Below, in pieces: positions 1 through 32,086 of a DNA stretch of 32,626 bases; position 1 is the first letter of the stretch; every line of letters starts with the position of its first letter. The notes beneath the pieces are model-generated. The model saw only the letters and a program-made list of their open reading frames with translations. It did no database searches and had not been told where the DNA came from. The translations under genes were made by a program, and so were the position numbers. The stretch covers positions 1 to 32,626 of the IMG/VR virus record IMGVR_UViG_3300017752_004237; one strand, 5' to 3'. This DNA comes from a virus.

Positions 1-213
1 ATGCCAAGCATTGATGCCAGGAATATCTCTTGCACCTGGAATCAAACGCAGTGTAATTTTTTCGCCAAGATGCTTTTCAAGTTCTTTTTTTACAATGTCT
101 GCCCATACTGTTGTGCCTTGACCAGGCTTTTGTGGAACAACCATTGTTACTTCTGCCATTGCTGAAGTAAACATAAACAAGGATGCTACGATCCCTAGTA
201 CTAGATTTTTCAT
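1..213 (-). CDS. tctC: TctC-like periplasmic substrate-binding protein (N-terminal part)
   Basis: The first 71 residues are visible; the rest runs off the left end of the window. The protein starts MKNLVLGIVASLF and has a Sec signal peptide (Lys-2, hydrophobic core, SAMA|E cleavage around residue 20). The mature part opens with VTMVVPQKPGQGTTVWADI, which fits the start of Bug/TctC binding proteins (a beta strand followed by a Pro-Gly-Gly-type ligand loop). The family binds small carboxylates such as citrate or other organic acids in the periplasm and hands them to TctA/TctB. It lies 9 bases downstream of tctA, so the two are probably co-transcribed. The start ATG at 213 is the only sensible one because it opens the signal peptide. 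The substrate cannot be told. Confidence 0.85.
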   Translation of the reverse strand, partial: MKNLVLGIVASLFMFTSAMAEVTMVVPQKPGQGTTVWADIVKKELEKHLGEKITLRLIPGARDIPGINAWH

Positions 214-222
214 TTTTATCTC

Positions 223-1677
223 CTATACAAAATCTATTCTTGCTTTATTAAAAAATATTCCCCATATTGCAGCACTAACTGCTAGTGTGAGGAATATAAG
301 TGGAAGTGGTTCAAGTAGCAAGTTTCTCCAACCATAACCAAATGTGTCAAACTGAACCCAACTGGATTCTAGTCTAGCACTTAAAATATAACCGATTAGA
401 AAACTAACACGGCTAAACTTAGTAAACTTTAGTACCATGCCTGCACAGCAACATATTGCCAGCATAGCATAATCATTAAACATACCTGTGTACTGTGTGC
501 TTGCCCAAATCAAACTAGCAAGTATGGGCCAAAAGTAATAACGGAAAGGAATGTTTGTAATATAAACTGCGTACTTAATAAATCCATAACTGATAGGCAG
601 AATTATTAATAAACTCCAAAGGTAACTGCTGAGTAGTACTTCAAAAAATTTTTCATCTTCTAGTACGCTTGGTGTGCCTAACTCAAGACCAACATACATT
701 AACAGTCCCATCACAATTACTTCAAACGGTGCGCCGGGTATCCCAAACAACACTGTGGGGACATAACTGGTTGCTTTTTGGGCATTGTTAGCGCCTTCAC
801 ACCCAATAACACCACGCACATGCCCTTGTCCAACATTTTCACCATCACGTTTACCTAGTGCAACTGTTTGGCTGTATGCAAACCAATCTGCAATAGCGCC
901 ACCAATACCCGGAATCAATCCAATGAACCCTCCTATAAAGCCTCCACGCAATCCATCCCATCTATAACGCCAAGTGTCTTTTATGCCTTGTATTAGCTGT
1001 GCTACAATAACACCATTTGTTAGTTTGATCTTTTCTGCTTTCATCCAGTAAGCACTTAATAGTTCTGGAAACGCTAATACCCCTGCCATAATAGGAATAA
1101 TCTGCACACCATCACCTAGGTATTCCCAACCCATTGTCCAGCGTGGACTTGCAGTGTTTGGATCCATACCGATATGTCCTACAGCAACGCCTAGTATCAA
1201 TGCAAGTGCACCACGGAACCAATACTTACTGCTAACAAATATAACACAGGTCATAGCAAATATTAAGAAACTAAACATTTCTACAGTACCAAAATATAAC
1301 ACAATATTAGTATACCAAGGCAAGAACAAGAACACCAACAGTCCCCAGATTAAACCATTTACCCAGCTGGTGCTTATAGCAGCACTTAAAGCTCTGGCGG
1401 CTTCTCCTCTTCTGCTCATAGGAAATCCATCAACCATTGTTGCTGCAGCACCGCCTGCTCCGGGTATATTCATCACAATTCCACAGAAGCTGTCACCAAT
1501 GCTACTGGTGACAACAACTGCAGTAGTAAACACCACTAACATGTACGGGTCTTCAAAGTAACCTACAAAACTGTAGATTGCAATCAATCCAGTAGTAGCA
1601 CCTGCTACTGGTATCAGTCCTATAAAGAAGCCATAAAAGACTCCGAGTAGCAGTACAATGACGTATGTTTCAATCAT
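223..1677 (-). CDS. tctA: TctA-family large membrane subunit of a tripartite tricarboxylate transporter
   Basis: This 484-residue protein is close to full family length (about 500). It is very hydrophobic, with roughly ten or more membrane segments. TctA hallmarks occur in two halves: GLIPVAG (20-26), NIPGAGG (70-76), DGFPM (83-87) and GEAARAL (91-97), then GLIPGIGG (253-260), EGANNA (294-299) and GIPGAP (312-317). TctA is the permease that moves a carboxylate across the inner membrane using an ion gradient, fed by TctC. The small four-helix subunit TctB is not seen next to it, although many systems have the order C-B-A. The start overlaps the stop of the sulfotransferase-like gene upstream by ATGA, so it is coupled to a phage-type neighbour. 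It looks intact. Confidence 0.92.
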   Translation of the reverse strand: MIETYVIVLLLGVFYGFFIGLIPVAGATTGLIAIYSFVGYFEDPYMLVVFTTAVVVTSSIGDSFCGIVMNIPGAGGAAATMVDGFPMSRRGEAARALSAAISTSWVNGLIWGLLVFLFLPWYTNIVLYFGTVEMFSFLIFAMTCVIFVSSKYWFRGALALILGVAVGHIGMDPNTASPRWTMGWEYLGDGVQIIPIMAGVLAFPELLSAYWMKAEKIKLTNGVIVAQLIQGIKDTWRYRWDGLRGGFIGGFIGLIPGIGGAIADWFAYSQTVALGKRDGENVGQGHVRGVIGCEGANNAQKATSYVPTVLFGIPGAPFEVIVMGLLMYVGLELGTPSVLEDEKFFEVLLSSYLWSLLIILPISYGFIKYAVYITNIPFRYYFWPILASLIWASTQYTGMFNDYAMLAICCCAGMVLKFTKFSRVSFLIGYILSARLESSWVQFDTFGYGWRNLLLEPLPLIFLTLAVSAAIWGIFFNKARIDFV

Positions 1678-17055: not shown

Positions 17056-17088
17056 AAAAAATGCCACTTTCTGTTGCTAGGCAGTGGC
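17056..17088 (-). terminator. Rho-independent terminator of the tmRNA gene
   Basis: On the minus strand GCCACT (17088-17083) pairs with AGTGGC (17068-17063) around a 14-base loop, followed by A and six T (17061-17056). It lies 45 bases after the tag stop codon and 11 bases before the cytidylyltransferase start. It probably ends the tmRNA transcript, and its stem may also be part of the 3' end of the coding piece. Confidence 0.7.
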
Positions 17089-17324
17089 CGCCCCATGAGA
17101 TTATGCCGCTAGGCGGTAATCCTCGATTGCGAAATTATCATTTGCAATTGTTTGTTTTCTTGCGGTCAAGGTCGCTTGCGCACCTGCTTCTCGGCATTGT
17201 TTTTACTACGTCTGTCGATCCTATTTCATCCCCTCTGAAACTGTAGTCGCCTACAAATTGGTGGAGATGCGGGGTACTGCCCCCCGGTCCAGTCCGTCTA
17301 TTCTACTACTCCTCAAACGAAGCA
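17063..17324 (-). ncRNA. ssrA: Permuted two-piece tmRNA (alphaproteobacterial type)
   Basis: Read on the minus strand, the acceptor piece comes first and ends in CCA at 17259. Its T-arm is CGGGG (17286-17282), a 7-base loop GGCAGTA, then CCCCG. Next come a 25-base spacer with hairpin TGTAG-GCGA-CTACA (17255-17242) and the coding piece from 17233. The acceptor stem closes perfectly: GGGGATG (17233-17227) with CATCTCC (17269-17263), including the G3.U70 pair that marks alanine charging. The tag frame from GCA at 17145 to TAA at 17101 reads ANDNFAIEDYRLAA. GAAGCA (17190-17185) can pair with TGCTTC (17324-17319) as part of helix 2. Ends are approximate. tmRNA with SmpB frees stalled ribosomes and tags proteins for degradation. 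Confidence 0.93.
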
Positions 17325-17600: not shown

Positions 17601-17849
17601 TTACCTAAATAGAGTTTCATCTATATCAAATTCCCTTGGGCTGTCATCAGCAGATTTCCAATTAAAAATTCGAAAATTATCAGCCTCTAAATCCCAAACC
17701 AGTTCCATACCTTCTGGATAGTTTTGTTCTGATCCCGCACCAATAACACGAGTTTCTAAAAACTGTTCTGGTAAATCTGCTAATTTAGCAAAAGTCATCT
17801 GTCTAAATTCACCATTCTTTTTCTTAAAAGTACCTTTGTATGCTTTCAT
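17601..17849 (-). CDS. Small SH3/WYL_2-like phage protein
   Basis: This 82-residue protein starts MKAYKGTFKKKNGEFRQMTF. The strand-rich T-F-x-K-K-N-G-x-x-R-x-M pattern resembles the small DUF2693/WYL_2 SH3-like barrels found in T4-type marine phages. The start at ATG 17849 is supported by GGAGAG (17860-17855) 5 bases upstream; an ATG four codons earlier overlaps that site and is less likely. A good sigma70-like promoter lies just upstream. The C-terminus (DDSPREFDIDETLFR) is acidic. Confidence 0.55.
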   Translation of the reverse strand: MKAYKGTFKKKNGEFRQMTFAKLADLPEQFLETRVIGAGSEQNYPEGMELVWDLEADNFRIFNWKSADDSPREFDIDETLFR

Positions 17850-17874
17850 TAATCTCTCCATTAGTTATGGTAAG

Positions 17875-17904: not shown

Positions 17905-18202
17905 GACTGTTTTTACGTAAAGCGCCTGCAAACTGTTTACGGATTGTTTCCCACTGTTCTAATGTAAATCTATAGTGAAATTCATAGTTTTCTGAATATA
18001 GTTTAATTTTTGTAGGAAGTTTTTGGATAGTCCACTTTTTACTATTTATTGATCCTGTCCATTTTACGTCAGGTTGCATCAATAAAATAAAACAATGCAA
18101 CTCAAACACTAAATTATGAACATGATTATCTGATATTCTGAGTGCGAGATGAACGTGTTGAGTTTCTGGATTGATTTGAATTTTTGTTAGGTCTTTGAAC
18201 AT
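17897..18202 (-). CDS. Unknown 101-residue phage protein
   Basis: It starts at ATG 18202 (MFKDLTKIQINPETQHVHLA) inside the end of the bS21 gene, in the +1 frame, with a 77-base overlap. The purine run AGAAAAAAGAAG upstream could act as a weak ribosome site. Alternating beta-type sequence (HVHLALRISDNHVHNLVFEL) and a later LYSENYEFHYRFTL suggest a small beta-sheet protein with a C-terminal helix. The long overlap is unusual but the reading frame is otherwise clean. Confidence 0.5.
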   Translation of the reverse strand: MFKDLTKIQINPETQHVHLALRISDNHVHNLVFELHCFILLMQPDVKWTGSINSKKWTIQKLPTKIKLYSENYEFHYRFTLEQWETIRKQFAGALRKNSLA

Positions 18203-18443
18203 GCTTCTTTTTTCTGCTATTTCTAATCATATTACGCTCTTCGCGTATAAATTTTTGCTCAAGCTGCAATCGTTTCTTTTCCCAACGTTTTTTACCTGCT
18301 TTCTCGGCCAAACGTTTCTTCTCACCTTTAGACCTAAAGAAAGCATTTTCACGCGCTTCTTTCATTACTCCTTCTGCTAGGAGCTTCTTTTTTAGAATAC
18401 GTAAAGCTTTATTTACGTCATTATTTTTTACAAAAATTTTCAT
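18126..18443 (-). CDS. rpsU: Phage-encoded ribosomal protein bS21
   Basis: This is a 105-residue protein from ATG 18443. MKIFVKNNDVNKALRILKKK, followed by LLAEG, matches the bS21 N-terminus (V-x-x-N-x-x-x-x-A-L-R-x-L-K-K-x-x-x-x-E-G), and FFRSKGEKKRLAEKAGKKR matches the basic helical rest. It carries an extra, very basic tail from about residue 70, longer than the usual 60-75. bS21 sits by the anti-Shine-Dalgarno site of the small subunit. Phage copies of bS21 are known, including in pelagiphages, and are thought to exchange into host ribosomes to favour phage messages. An upstream ORF extension to 18503 is rejected. The start overlaps the epimerase gene by 23 bases. Confidence 0.9.
   Translation of the reverse strand: MKIFVKNNDVNKALRILKKKLLAEGVMKEARENAFFRSKGEKKRLAEKAGKKRWEKKRLQLEQKFIREERNMIRNSRKKKHVQRPNKNSNQSRNSTRSSRTQNIR
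18207..18213 (-). other. Slippery heptamer A AAA AAG near the end of bS21
   Basis: AAAAAAG (18213-18207) falls on bS21 codons 78-79 in the correct phase (A-AAA-AAG) for -1 ribosomal frameshifting, as at dnaX. In the -1 frame the product would end after eight more codons or so, giving a shorter tail. No downstream stem has been established. It may only be a purine-rich ribosome site for the next gene. Confidence 0.3.
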
Positions 18444-19356
18444 ATTTACCGTAATAGTCTCTGACTGTTTCCTCATAGTTTGAGTACTCAAAATTAACTC
18501 CAAACGTGTTTAGTAACTTATCACAACTAAGTGTACCACGTGGTTTTCCTGTTGGTCCTAGTTTAAGTTGAGTCTCAAACTCTTTTGGATAGACCGTTTT
18601 TAGCGCGTTTTCTGTTCTTACAAAATTGTATGCTATATTATAGGTTCCAGGAATCCATTTGTCTACAATATTTTTTACTGTATTAACAAAGTCGTCGATA
18701 TAAATACAAGCAGCAGCCTCTACTAGTACAGGTTTATTGATTGCAATCTGTCGCTCTATATTCATCCAGATTGAAAATTTACCATCTCCCATACCATATA
18801 CATGTATGGGTCGCAAAATAATATCTTCTTTTCCGCAGAGAGTTTCTGCTTTTATTTTACTGAGACCATAAGGGTTCTCAGATCCTAAAGAGTACTGCTC
18901 GTCGATTACTTCTTCCCAAGTGCCATAAACCATGCTACTACTTATATGTAGACAAGGCGTATGAGGAAAACGCTGTTTAATTCTAGTTAATCCAGTTACA
19001 ATAGAGTCATGAGTAAAGTCTGGAAAATGTTGAGATAAAATTGCTTCGCTTAACGCTCCGCAATTTATGATTAAATCATAGTTTTCTAAAGGAATATGTG
19101 ATTGAAAAGAGTGGTTGTTAATAATTTTATTAAAACAACCTTTGATTAAAGAAAGTCTATATTTTAAATTTAAATTTCTATGTTTTTTCTCTATATCGTT
19201 TGTTTCTTGTAAGCCTTTTGATCCTCTATGAATATACTTATGTCCAACGTAATCTTGAGTAAATCCATCTAATATATCTATTTCATGTTCTTTTCCAAGA
19301 GCTGCTACTAAATTTGAACCTATAAAACCGAAACCACCAGTTATCAGTATTTTCAT
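18421..19356 (-). CDS. NAD-dependent sugar epimerase/dehydratase-like protein
   Basis: This 311-residue protein opens MKILITGGFGFIGSNLV with GGFGFIG (7-13). HISSSMVYGTWEE holds the catalytic Ser, and ENPYGLSKIKAE the Tyr and Lys of the SDR triad. RPIHVYGMGDGKFS corresponds to the substrate loop. It is the third SDR sugar enzyme in the window. Its start overlaps the radical SAM gene by 4 bases (ATGA). The function could be epimerase, dehydratase or reductase on a nucleotide sugar. Confidence 0.85.
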   Translation of the reverse strand: MKILITGGFGFIGSNLVAALGKEHEIDILDGFTQDYVGHKYIHRGSKGLQETNDIEKKHRNLNLKYRLSLIKGCFNKIINNHSFQSHIPLENYDLIINCGALSEAILSQHFPDFTHDSIVTGLTRIKQRFPHTPCLHISSSMVYGTWEEVIDEQYSLGSENPYGLSKIKAETLCGKEDIILRPIHVYGMGDGKFSIWMNIERQIAINKPVLVEAAACIYIDDFVNTVKNIVDKWIPGTYNIAYNFVRTENALKTVYPKEFETQLKLGPTGKPRGTLSCDKLLNTFGVNFEYSNYEETVRDYYGKYENFCKK

Positions 19357-31006: not shown

Positions 31007-32086
31007 ATGCGTTATTTTGAAAAACTATTTCATACTGTTGTTATCAGTATGTTTATTGGACTTATGTCCTCACTTGCTTTTGCAGCTGACCCTGTAAAAG
31101 TAGGGTTTGTATATGTCGGACCTATTGGTGATCACGGTTGGACCTATCGTCATGATATTGGTCGTCAACAAATAGAAAAAGCATACGGTGATAAAGTAAA
31201 AACAACCTACGTAGAGAGCGTAAAATACGGTCCAGACGCAGAACGCACTATTCGTATGCTAGCAGAAACTAATGATATTGTGTTTGCTACTTCGTTTGGA
31301 TACATGGAGCCAATGTTAAAAGTTGCTAAAGAGTTTCCAAACGTAAAGTTTGAACATGCAACAGGATACAAACAGTCAGATAACATGGCATCATACGGAC
31401 TGCGATTATATCAAGCACGACATGTGCAAGGTATTATTGCTGGTATGATGACTAAAACTAATAAAATTTGCTATGTAGCTGCATATCCTATCCCTGAGGT
31501 TATTCGTGAAATTAACACATATTATCTAGGTGCTAAGAAGATGAACCCAGATGTTGATATTGATATTGTATGGGCTAATACTTGGTATAACCCTAGTAAA
31601 GAAGCAGACGCTGCAAATGTTATGATGGCTGAAGGTTGTGATATGATGGCACAACACACAGACAGTCCTGCACCCCTACAAGCCGCACAACAGCAAGGTA
31701 AGTTAGGATTTGGACAAGCAAGTGATCAGTTTAAATTTGCTCCAAAAGCACAGTTAACAGCAACTATTGACAACTGGGGACCTTACTACGTCCAGAAGGT
31801 CGGACAAGTTATTGATGGCACTTGGACTACAGGTAATTACTTTGGTCATATGAATGATGGTTCAGTACAAATGGCACCGTTTACTAACATGCCAGATAAT
31901 GTAAGGATGAAAGCTGCCGAGATCAAACAAGCAATCTCTGATGGTAAATACTTTGCATTTACTGGTCCTATTAAAGATAATACAGGTAAACTCCAACTCA
32001 AAGCAGGCGAAGTAGCTGACGATACACATCTTAATACAATGATGTATTATGTTGAAGGCATTGACGCTAAAGTGCCAGGAAACTAA
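31007..32086 (+). CDS. BMP/PnrA-like periplasmic substrate-binding protein
   Basis: This is a 359-residue protein. It has a Sec signal peptide (LMSSLAFA|ADP near residue 26) and no lipobox Cys, so it should be a free periplasmic protein rather than a lipoprotein. KVGFVYVGPIGDHGWTYRHD (31-50), ATSFGYM, AQHTDSPAP and GFGQASD are the ligand-loop segments of the BMP (Med/PnrA) family, which binds purine or other nucleosides, or related compounds, for ABC transport. No ABC permease or ATPase is visible. AAAGGAAATAAA precedes the ATG. It is followed 3 bases later by a 2OG oxygenase gene. Confidence 0.9.
   Translation: MRYFEKLFHTVVISMFIGLMSSLAFAADPVKVGFVYVGPIGDHGWTYRHDIGRQQIEKAYGDKVKTTYVESVKYGPDAERTIRMLAETNDIVFATSFGYMEPMLKVAKEFPNVKFEHATGYKQSDNMASYGLRLYQARHVQGIIAGMMTKTNKICYVAAYPIPEVIREINTYYLGAKKMNPDVDIDIVWANTWYNPSKEADAANVMMAEGCDMMAQHTDSPAPLQAAQQQGKLGFGQASDQFKFAPKAQLTATIDNWGPYYVQKVGQVIDGTWTTGNYFGHMNDGSVQMAPFTNMPDNVRMKAAEIKQAISDGKYFAFTGPIKDNTGKLQLKAGEVADDTHLNTMMYYVEGIDAKVPGN

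Follow-up and report, generated by a model that had tools for sequence, protein, structure and literature searches.

Permuted, two-piece tmRNAs are already known from phages. The 2022 description of the methylophage Melnitz counted 402 phages with a tmRNA, corresponding to 133 unique structures, 53 of which are two-piece, and 50 of these 53 came from marine or aquatic samples (PMC9004378). Melnitz infects OM43, a non-alphaproteobacterial host, yet it carries a tmRNA of the alphaproteobacterial type, and its ssrA is accompanied by a glutamine riboswitch (PMC9004378). A 2025 survey gathered 97,179 tmRNA sequences, 11,946 of them permuted; as contents of the spacer it reports one tRNA-Ala and one repetitive element, with no others mentioned (PMC11915505). 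Protein genes nested in permuted tmRNAs are not reported in any of the open-licence papers that we searched.

We analyzed a viral sequence fragment 32,626 bases long (IMG/VR record IMGVR_UViG_3300017752_004237, positions 1 to 32,626), the whole of which is called the window below. Like Melnitz and Pelagibacter phage Mosig, lytic marine phages of streamlined heterotroph hosts (PMC9004378), it carries a tmRNA that is permuted, complete and alphaproteobacterial in type. It differs from both in its gene neighborhood and in having relatives with protein genes in the spacer, and Rfam found no glutamine riboswitch here. With bacterial ssrA (RF01849/RF04321) it shares the order acceptor-spacer-coding, the T loop GGCRGUA, the G3.U70 pair and the ANDN tag, whereas the coding piece of the phage gene has a shorter and divergent 3′ part, and the gene is viral, comes without smpB and has relatives whose spacers carry protein cargo. 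Because phage-borne two-piece tmRNAs were already reported (PMC9004378), the window copy is a further example of a published type, and the novelty implied by the preliminary description of this DNA was overstated, 53 such structures being on record in phages by 2021 (PMC9004378). What appears undescribed is the presence of small protein genes in phage tmRNA spacers.

The tmRNA gene of the window

The preliminary description had proposed a permuted two-piece tmRNA at 17063–17324 without stating the strand. Rfam covariance models place a complete molecule of the alphaproteobacterial type at 17323–17060 on the minus strand. RF01849 (alpha_tmRNA), the top-scoring model of its clan, matched 17372–17060 with 112.9 bits (E 2.7e-30; gathering threshold 50 bits), and RF04321 (tmRNA_permuted) matched 17323–17101 with 109.9 bits (E 7.8e-21; gathering threshold 47 bits). 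Both matches cover the full length of the model (positions 1–355 and 1–213, respectively) and hence both halves of the RNA. The features of the locus are as follows.

17259–17323, minus strand: acceptor piece (5′ part of the gene), with the 7-nt acceptor strand CATCTCC and CCA; the RF04321 model begins at 17323
17270–17286, minus strand: T-arm CGGGG-GGCAGUA-CCCCG, from the Rfam structure line
17234–17258, minus strand: intervening segment of 25 nt in its empty form; the cargo site for small protein genes in relatives
17060–17233, minus strand: coding piece, starting GGGGATGAAATAGGATCGAC at 17233; the RF01849 match runs down to 17060
17186–17190, minus strand: 3′ strand (GAAGC) of helix P2; its partner GCUUC is at 17323–17319, and the helix covaries in relatives
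17101–17145, minus strand: tag reading frame ANDNFAIEDYRLAA plus stop, aligned to the resume region of RF01849
16635–17045, minus strand: cytidylyltransferase-like gene directly 3′ of the tmRNA (PF01467, E 1.3e-16)
17601–17861, minus strand: small phage gene; in 25 of 26 viral loci, a tmRNA lies no more than about 1.5 kb downstream of its homologue
18126–18503, minus strand: frame encoding a domain of ribosomal protein bS21 (PF01165, E 8.6e-9); in the tmRNA operon, upstream of the tmRNA

The acceptor half lies 5′ of the coding half with the spacer between them, as in other two-piece genes, and it is closed by an encoded CCA (17261–17259, minus strand). The acceptor stem GGGGATG/CATCTCC is paired at all seven positions and includes the alanine identity pair G3.U70. 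The 25-nt spacer, ATTTGTAGGCGACTACAGTTTCAGA, forms the hairpin UGUAG-GCGA-CUACA at 17255–17242, with GCGA as its loop, and holds no protein-coding gene, i.e., the window copy itself is without nested cargo. Helix P2 (GCUUC/GAAGC) links the acceptor and coding pieces. The tag frame begins with a codon for a small residue and ends in AA and a stop (ANDNFAIEDYRLAA*). The order of the parts, the CCA, the GCGA hairpin, the seven-pair stem with its G3.U70 pair and the tag frame with its stop had all been read beforehand from the sequence, and each of these readings held. Near the locus, a consensus scan gave promoter-like sites only at the level of shuffled sequences, and terminator-like sites were in slight excess over shuffles, with none on the tmRNA strand.

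Relatives give further weight to this structure. The acceptor stem is fully paired and retains G3.U70 in every one of seven sequences, whose spacers measure 16–256 nt, and P2 occurs as GUCUC/GAGAC, ACCUC/GAGGU and GUUCC/GGAAC. Given an E value of about 1e-30 and these compensatory changes in the acceptor stem and P2, the window tmRNA lies beyond chance. Its score, set against 293.7 bits for a bacterial control, and the lack of an ARAGORN call could still suggest a passenger or a decaying, host-derived copy of no use to the phage, as could a near-identical copy (L091, the same as L301) with a swapped acceptor half and a broken P2. However, ARAGORN was also silent on several relatives with Rfam scores above 100 bits, so its silence is not evidence against the window tmRNA. 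The compensated acceptor stem and P2, the invariant G3.U70, the intact tags and the conserved place across divergent viruses point to long-term selection in phages, and we consider a useless passenger very unlikely.

In L091/L301 (4571–4792, minus strand), the match to the window comprises the coding piece and the genes downstream of it, and the acceptor half and the upstream genes differ from the T-arm on, which would reflect either recombination inside the tmRNA or misassembly. Because of its swapped half and broken P2, some metagenomic copies may be recombinant, dead or misassembled.

In the lineage of the window, the ANDN start and the final AA of the tag are kept and the middle varies; the window tag ends in YRLAA and those of near relatives in RVAA and RIAA. 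Such tags of their own might indicate that the phage tmRNA acts as a competitor or decoy, displacing the host tmRNA and redirecting tagging, for example toward a different fate, instead of simply adding rescue capacity. A tag-less mycobacteriophage tmRNA expressed in E. coli does inhibit the host tmRNA (PMC11915505). The intact tag frame and its canonical small hydrophobic end residues, however, suggest that tagging itself is used, and the decoy role, while possible, seems to us unlikely.

Viral context, SmpB and host

The window encodes a phage lysozyme, a DUF3310 protein, an AdoMet decarboxylase and a carbamoyltransferase of the marine-myovirus kind, along with sugar-nucleotide, glycosyltransferase and transporter (TctA and BMP) genes. 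The TctA gene (1–1677, minus strand), accompanied by a probable binding-protein gene at the edge of the window, and the gene for a BMP-family binding protein (31007–32086, plus strand) are possible auxiliary metabolic genes on this phage contig.

Searches for gp23 and the T4 prohead protease were negative, both for the window and for the contigs whose synteny with it is intact. The lack of structural genes in the window and the presence of the two transporter genes would fit host DNA misfiled as viral, with the tmRNA as a bacterial ssrA. This is extremely improbable, considering the four phage-type genes named first above, the 39 virus contigs that share one window gene, and the phage DNA polymerase and NAD ligase genes held by syntenic relatives; the viral nature of the tmRNA, assumed in the preliminary description, thus stands.

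The place of the gene is conserved. Homologues of the small phage gene at 17601–17861 were found in 30 virus loci; the 26 counted above are those with enough downstream sequence, an acceptor piece alone being accepted where the contig ends, and the sole exception (L194) is the most distant. Among 47 related virus records, 26 have an RF04321 score above the cut-off, as does the isolate Pelagibacter phage HTVC008M, in which the permuted tmRNA (NC_020484, 145161–145370; tag ANFNEYALAA) is unannotated and overlapped by a “hypothetical protein”. Permuted tmRNAs also occur in DSS3_MAL1, where ssrA is annotated, and in Phaeobacter phage MD18 and Caulobacter phage C1, where it is not. In MD18 (L420, 2055–2522, minus strand) and in DSS3_MAL1 (L421, 925–1388, plus strand), a GOLLD RNA in a tRNA cluster immediately precedes the permuted tmRNA. 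The tmRNA region of the window gave only short blastn matches to named phages.

No smpB had been seen in the window, and this observation extends to its relatives: SmpB (PF01668) was found in none of 58 virus records, including the full-length genomes of the four isolate phages HTVC008M, DSS3_MAL1, MD18 and Caulobacter phage C1, and in all ten bacterial controls. The absence of SmpB from all 58 records suggests that the phage would rely on the SmpB of its host.

The host had been proposed to be an alphaproteobacterium. The alphaproteobacterial type of the RNA and the ANDN tag fit this proposal, and such a host is likely from the sequence, but the assignment stays provisional because Melnitz, a phage of the non-alphaproteobacterial OM43, has a tmRNA of the same type (PMC9004378). 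A search of bacterial genomes with TctA returned no relative, and a pattern of the tag region matched only three unrelated loci in the genomes searched, none of them alphaproteobacterial.

Small protein genes in the spacers of related phages

From 170 distinct viral permuted tmRNAs, a set biased by the patterns used to fetch the sequences, we parsed spacers of up to 267 nt, 34 of them at least 100 nt long. Long spacers (100–267 nt) with small protein genes occur in related phages (L287, L290, L295, L297–L300, L317, L340, L351, L352, L359 and others), and two of these phages have tmRNAs ~90% identical to the window copy. The cargo-bearing tmRNAs score above the Rfam cut-off, and the halves on either side of the cargo remain intact and covary. 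In most long spacers, the tmRNA strand itself has an open frame, whose start is often closely preceded by a GGAG-like site. Six cargo families recur.

Family A: 28–34 aa, hydrophobic; nine loci, only nested (9/9); pN/pS 0.26
Family B: 29 aa, basic; four loci, almost identical
Family C: 37 aa, hydrophobic; pN/pS 0.41
Family D: 43–47 aa, Trp-rich; two loci
Family E: 68 aa, weakly DUF2061-like; pN/pS 0.19
Family F: 71–75 aa, Cys-containing; two nested forms with 45% protein identity, omega about 0.22

Singleton cargo longer than expected by chance was found in six more loci (L280, L286, L289, L297, L298 and L396). The contigs of families B, E and F carry phage baseplate, tail and single-strand-binding (gp32-like) genes, and those of family A and of the L298 cargo carry a phage DNA polymerase and an NAD ligase.

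These frames could be chance ORFs within a tolerated insertion rather than genes. The ORF exceeds the expectation from dinucleotide shuffles (P<0.05) in 21 of the 34 long spacers, leaving 13 without an ORF beyond chance, and seven (L276, L277, L281, L291, L292, L293 and L319) lack a convincing ORF; four of these (L276, L281, L291 and L293) look structured and matched no known RNA family in Rfam. Pfam and PHROGs name almost none of the cargo proteins and gave no confident family, the DUF2061 match of family E (E 0.0012) being below the cut-off. Nevertheless, in 33 of the 34 long spacers the sense strand has the longer frame, although related loci among the 34 are not independent. The low pN/pS of families A, C and E and the low omega of family F also speak against chance, as do the ribosome-binding-site-like GGAG that precedes the starts of family A and the free-standing homologues of families E and F. 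By their pN/pS and omega values, families A, C, E and F are under purifying selection; in B and D, the variation is too low for a good test. Chance frames are in our judgment most improbable, and the reading that the spacer slot holds coding genes is well supported at the sequence level.

Cargo is not tied to one backbone. Family E has eight nested loci, spread over three or more acceptor-stem backgrounds, and nine free-standing ones; for family F, there are four nested loci, whose acceptor stems are of three kinds, and sixteen free-standing loci. The coding piece of the window is 93% identical to that of L285, which has an empty spacer, 90% to that of L295, which carries family A (34 aa), and 90% to that of L300, which carries family F (71 aa). 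These distributions indicate that the cargo moves and that one tmRNA backbone occurs with different contents. In L446 and L447, the family E gene lies between spacer arms (AAAACACATTA...TAGTGTGTTTATGA) without the tmRNA halves, like a stand-alone cassette, and in L448 family E lies directly upstream of a tmRNA.

The ends of the long spacers pair as a helix, UAAACAC...GUGUUUA. Native arms gave 7.3 consecutive pairs against 5.1 for swapped arms (permutation P 5e-4) in a set that was partly fetched with a pattern fixing one arm, and 17 loci fetched by protein went in the same direction (5.8 against 3.6). Bacterial spacers were compared through two plasmid-borne permuted tmRNAs; the arms of the Methylobacterium plasmid copy are similar to the phage ones, so that the end-helix, common to both, probably dates from early in the history of the gene.

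The published spacer contents, a tRNA-Ala and a repeat (PMC11915505), contrast with the recurrent small protein genes of several families found here in phages. The homing-endonuclease genes of group I introns in tmRNA genes (PMC11915505) likewise place a protein gene in a removed part of the gene. In the present case, however, the protein gene occupies the segment that the permuted form loses on processing; no intron was found in the tmRNA gene here, and no cargo protein tested matched an endonuclease family.

In all nine family A loci, the frame meets its sole stop codon 13 nt into the coding piece of the tmRNA. Since the frame ends within the coding piece, processing of the precursor would remove its stop codon. 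The spacer might then be a slot for regulated expression, in which the stop-less family A message becomes a substrate of the flanking tmRNA in a self-limiting loop resembling arfA control. If true, this would couple the output of a small membrane protein to tmRNA maturation. We regard this loop as quite doubtful; the placement of the stop codon may be regulatory or simply accidental in a densely packed genome.

Proposed function and significance

We conclude that the window locus is very probably a working permuted ssrA of a marine tailed phage and that, in its lineage, the spacer doubles as a cargo slot. This reading draws on structure, covariation, the intact tag, the conserved location, the nested frames, selection on four families and the outside homologues of two, all taken from sequence. 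In trans-translation, tmRNA undergoes RNase P and 3′-end processing, is charged by AlaRS and is delivered by SmpB and EF-Tu, and the tagged products undergo ClpXP-type degradation. By the same steps, host RNases would trim the phage transcript at two points, the CCA end and the coding-piece start. The spacer would be discarded, with the acceptor stem and P2 predicted to hold the acceptor and coding pieces together. The host AlaRS would charge the molecule through G3.U70, and host SmpB and EF-Tu would deliver it to stalled ribosomes. The tag added would be A-ANDNFAIEDYRLAA, ending in a degron of the LAA type. Ribosomes would thus be freed during infection and tagged products sent to host proteases, presumably to the benefit of the phage.

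In this lineage, the end-helix would be retained and different small protein genes inserted between its arms, the window representing the empty version. The spacer is most likely usable as a cargo site because there is no sequence constraint between its arms. The cargo would be carried and co-transcribed in the discarded spacer, and the nested genes may be expressed from there.

The window copy adds another marine phage with its own ribosome-rescue RNA, presumably dependent on the host for SmpB, and the bS21 gene beside the tmRNA points to phage control of translation. The more important result is that the discarded segment of a structured RNA gene repeatedly houses small phage proteins, which makes the cargo slot a further functional consequence of the permuted arrangement. 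Spacers of tmRNA genes are also a place where gene callers may overlook small phage membrane proteins, and the coupling of tmRNA processing to the expression of small proteins becomes a testable question.
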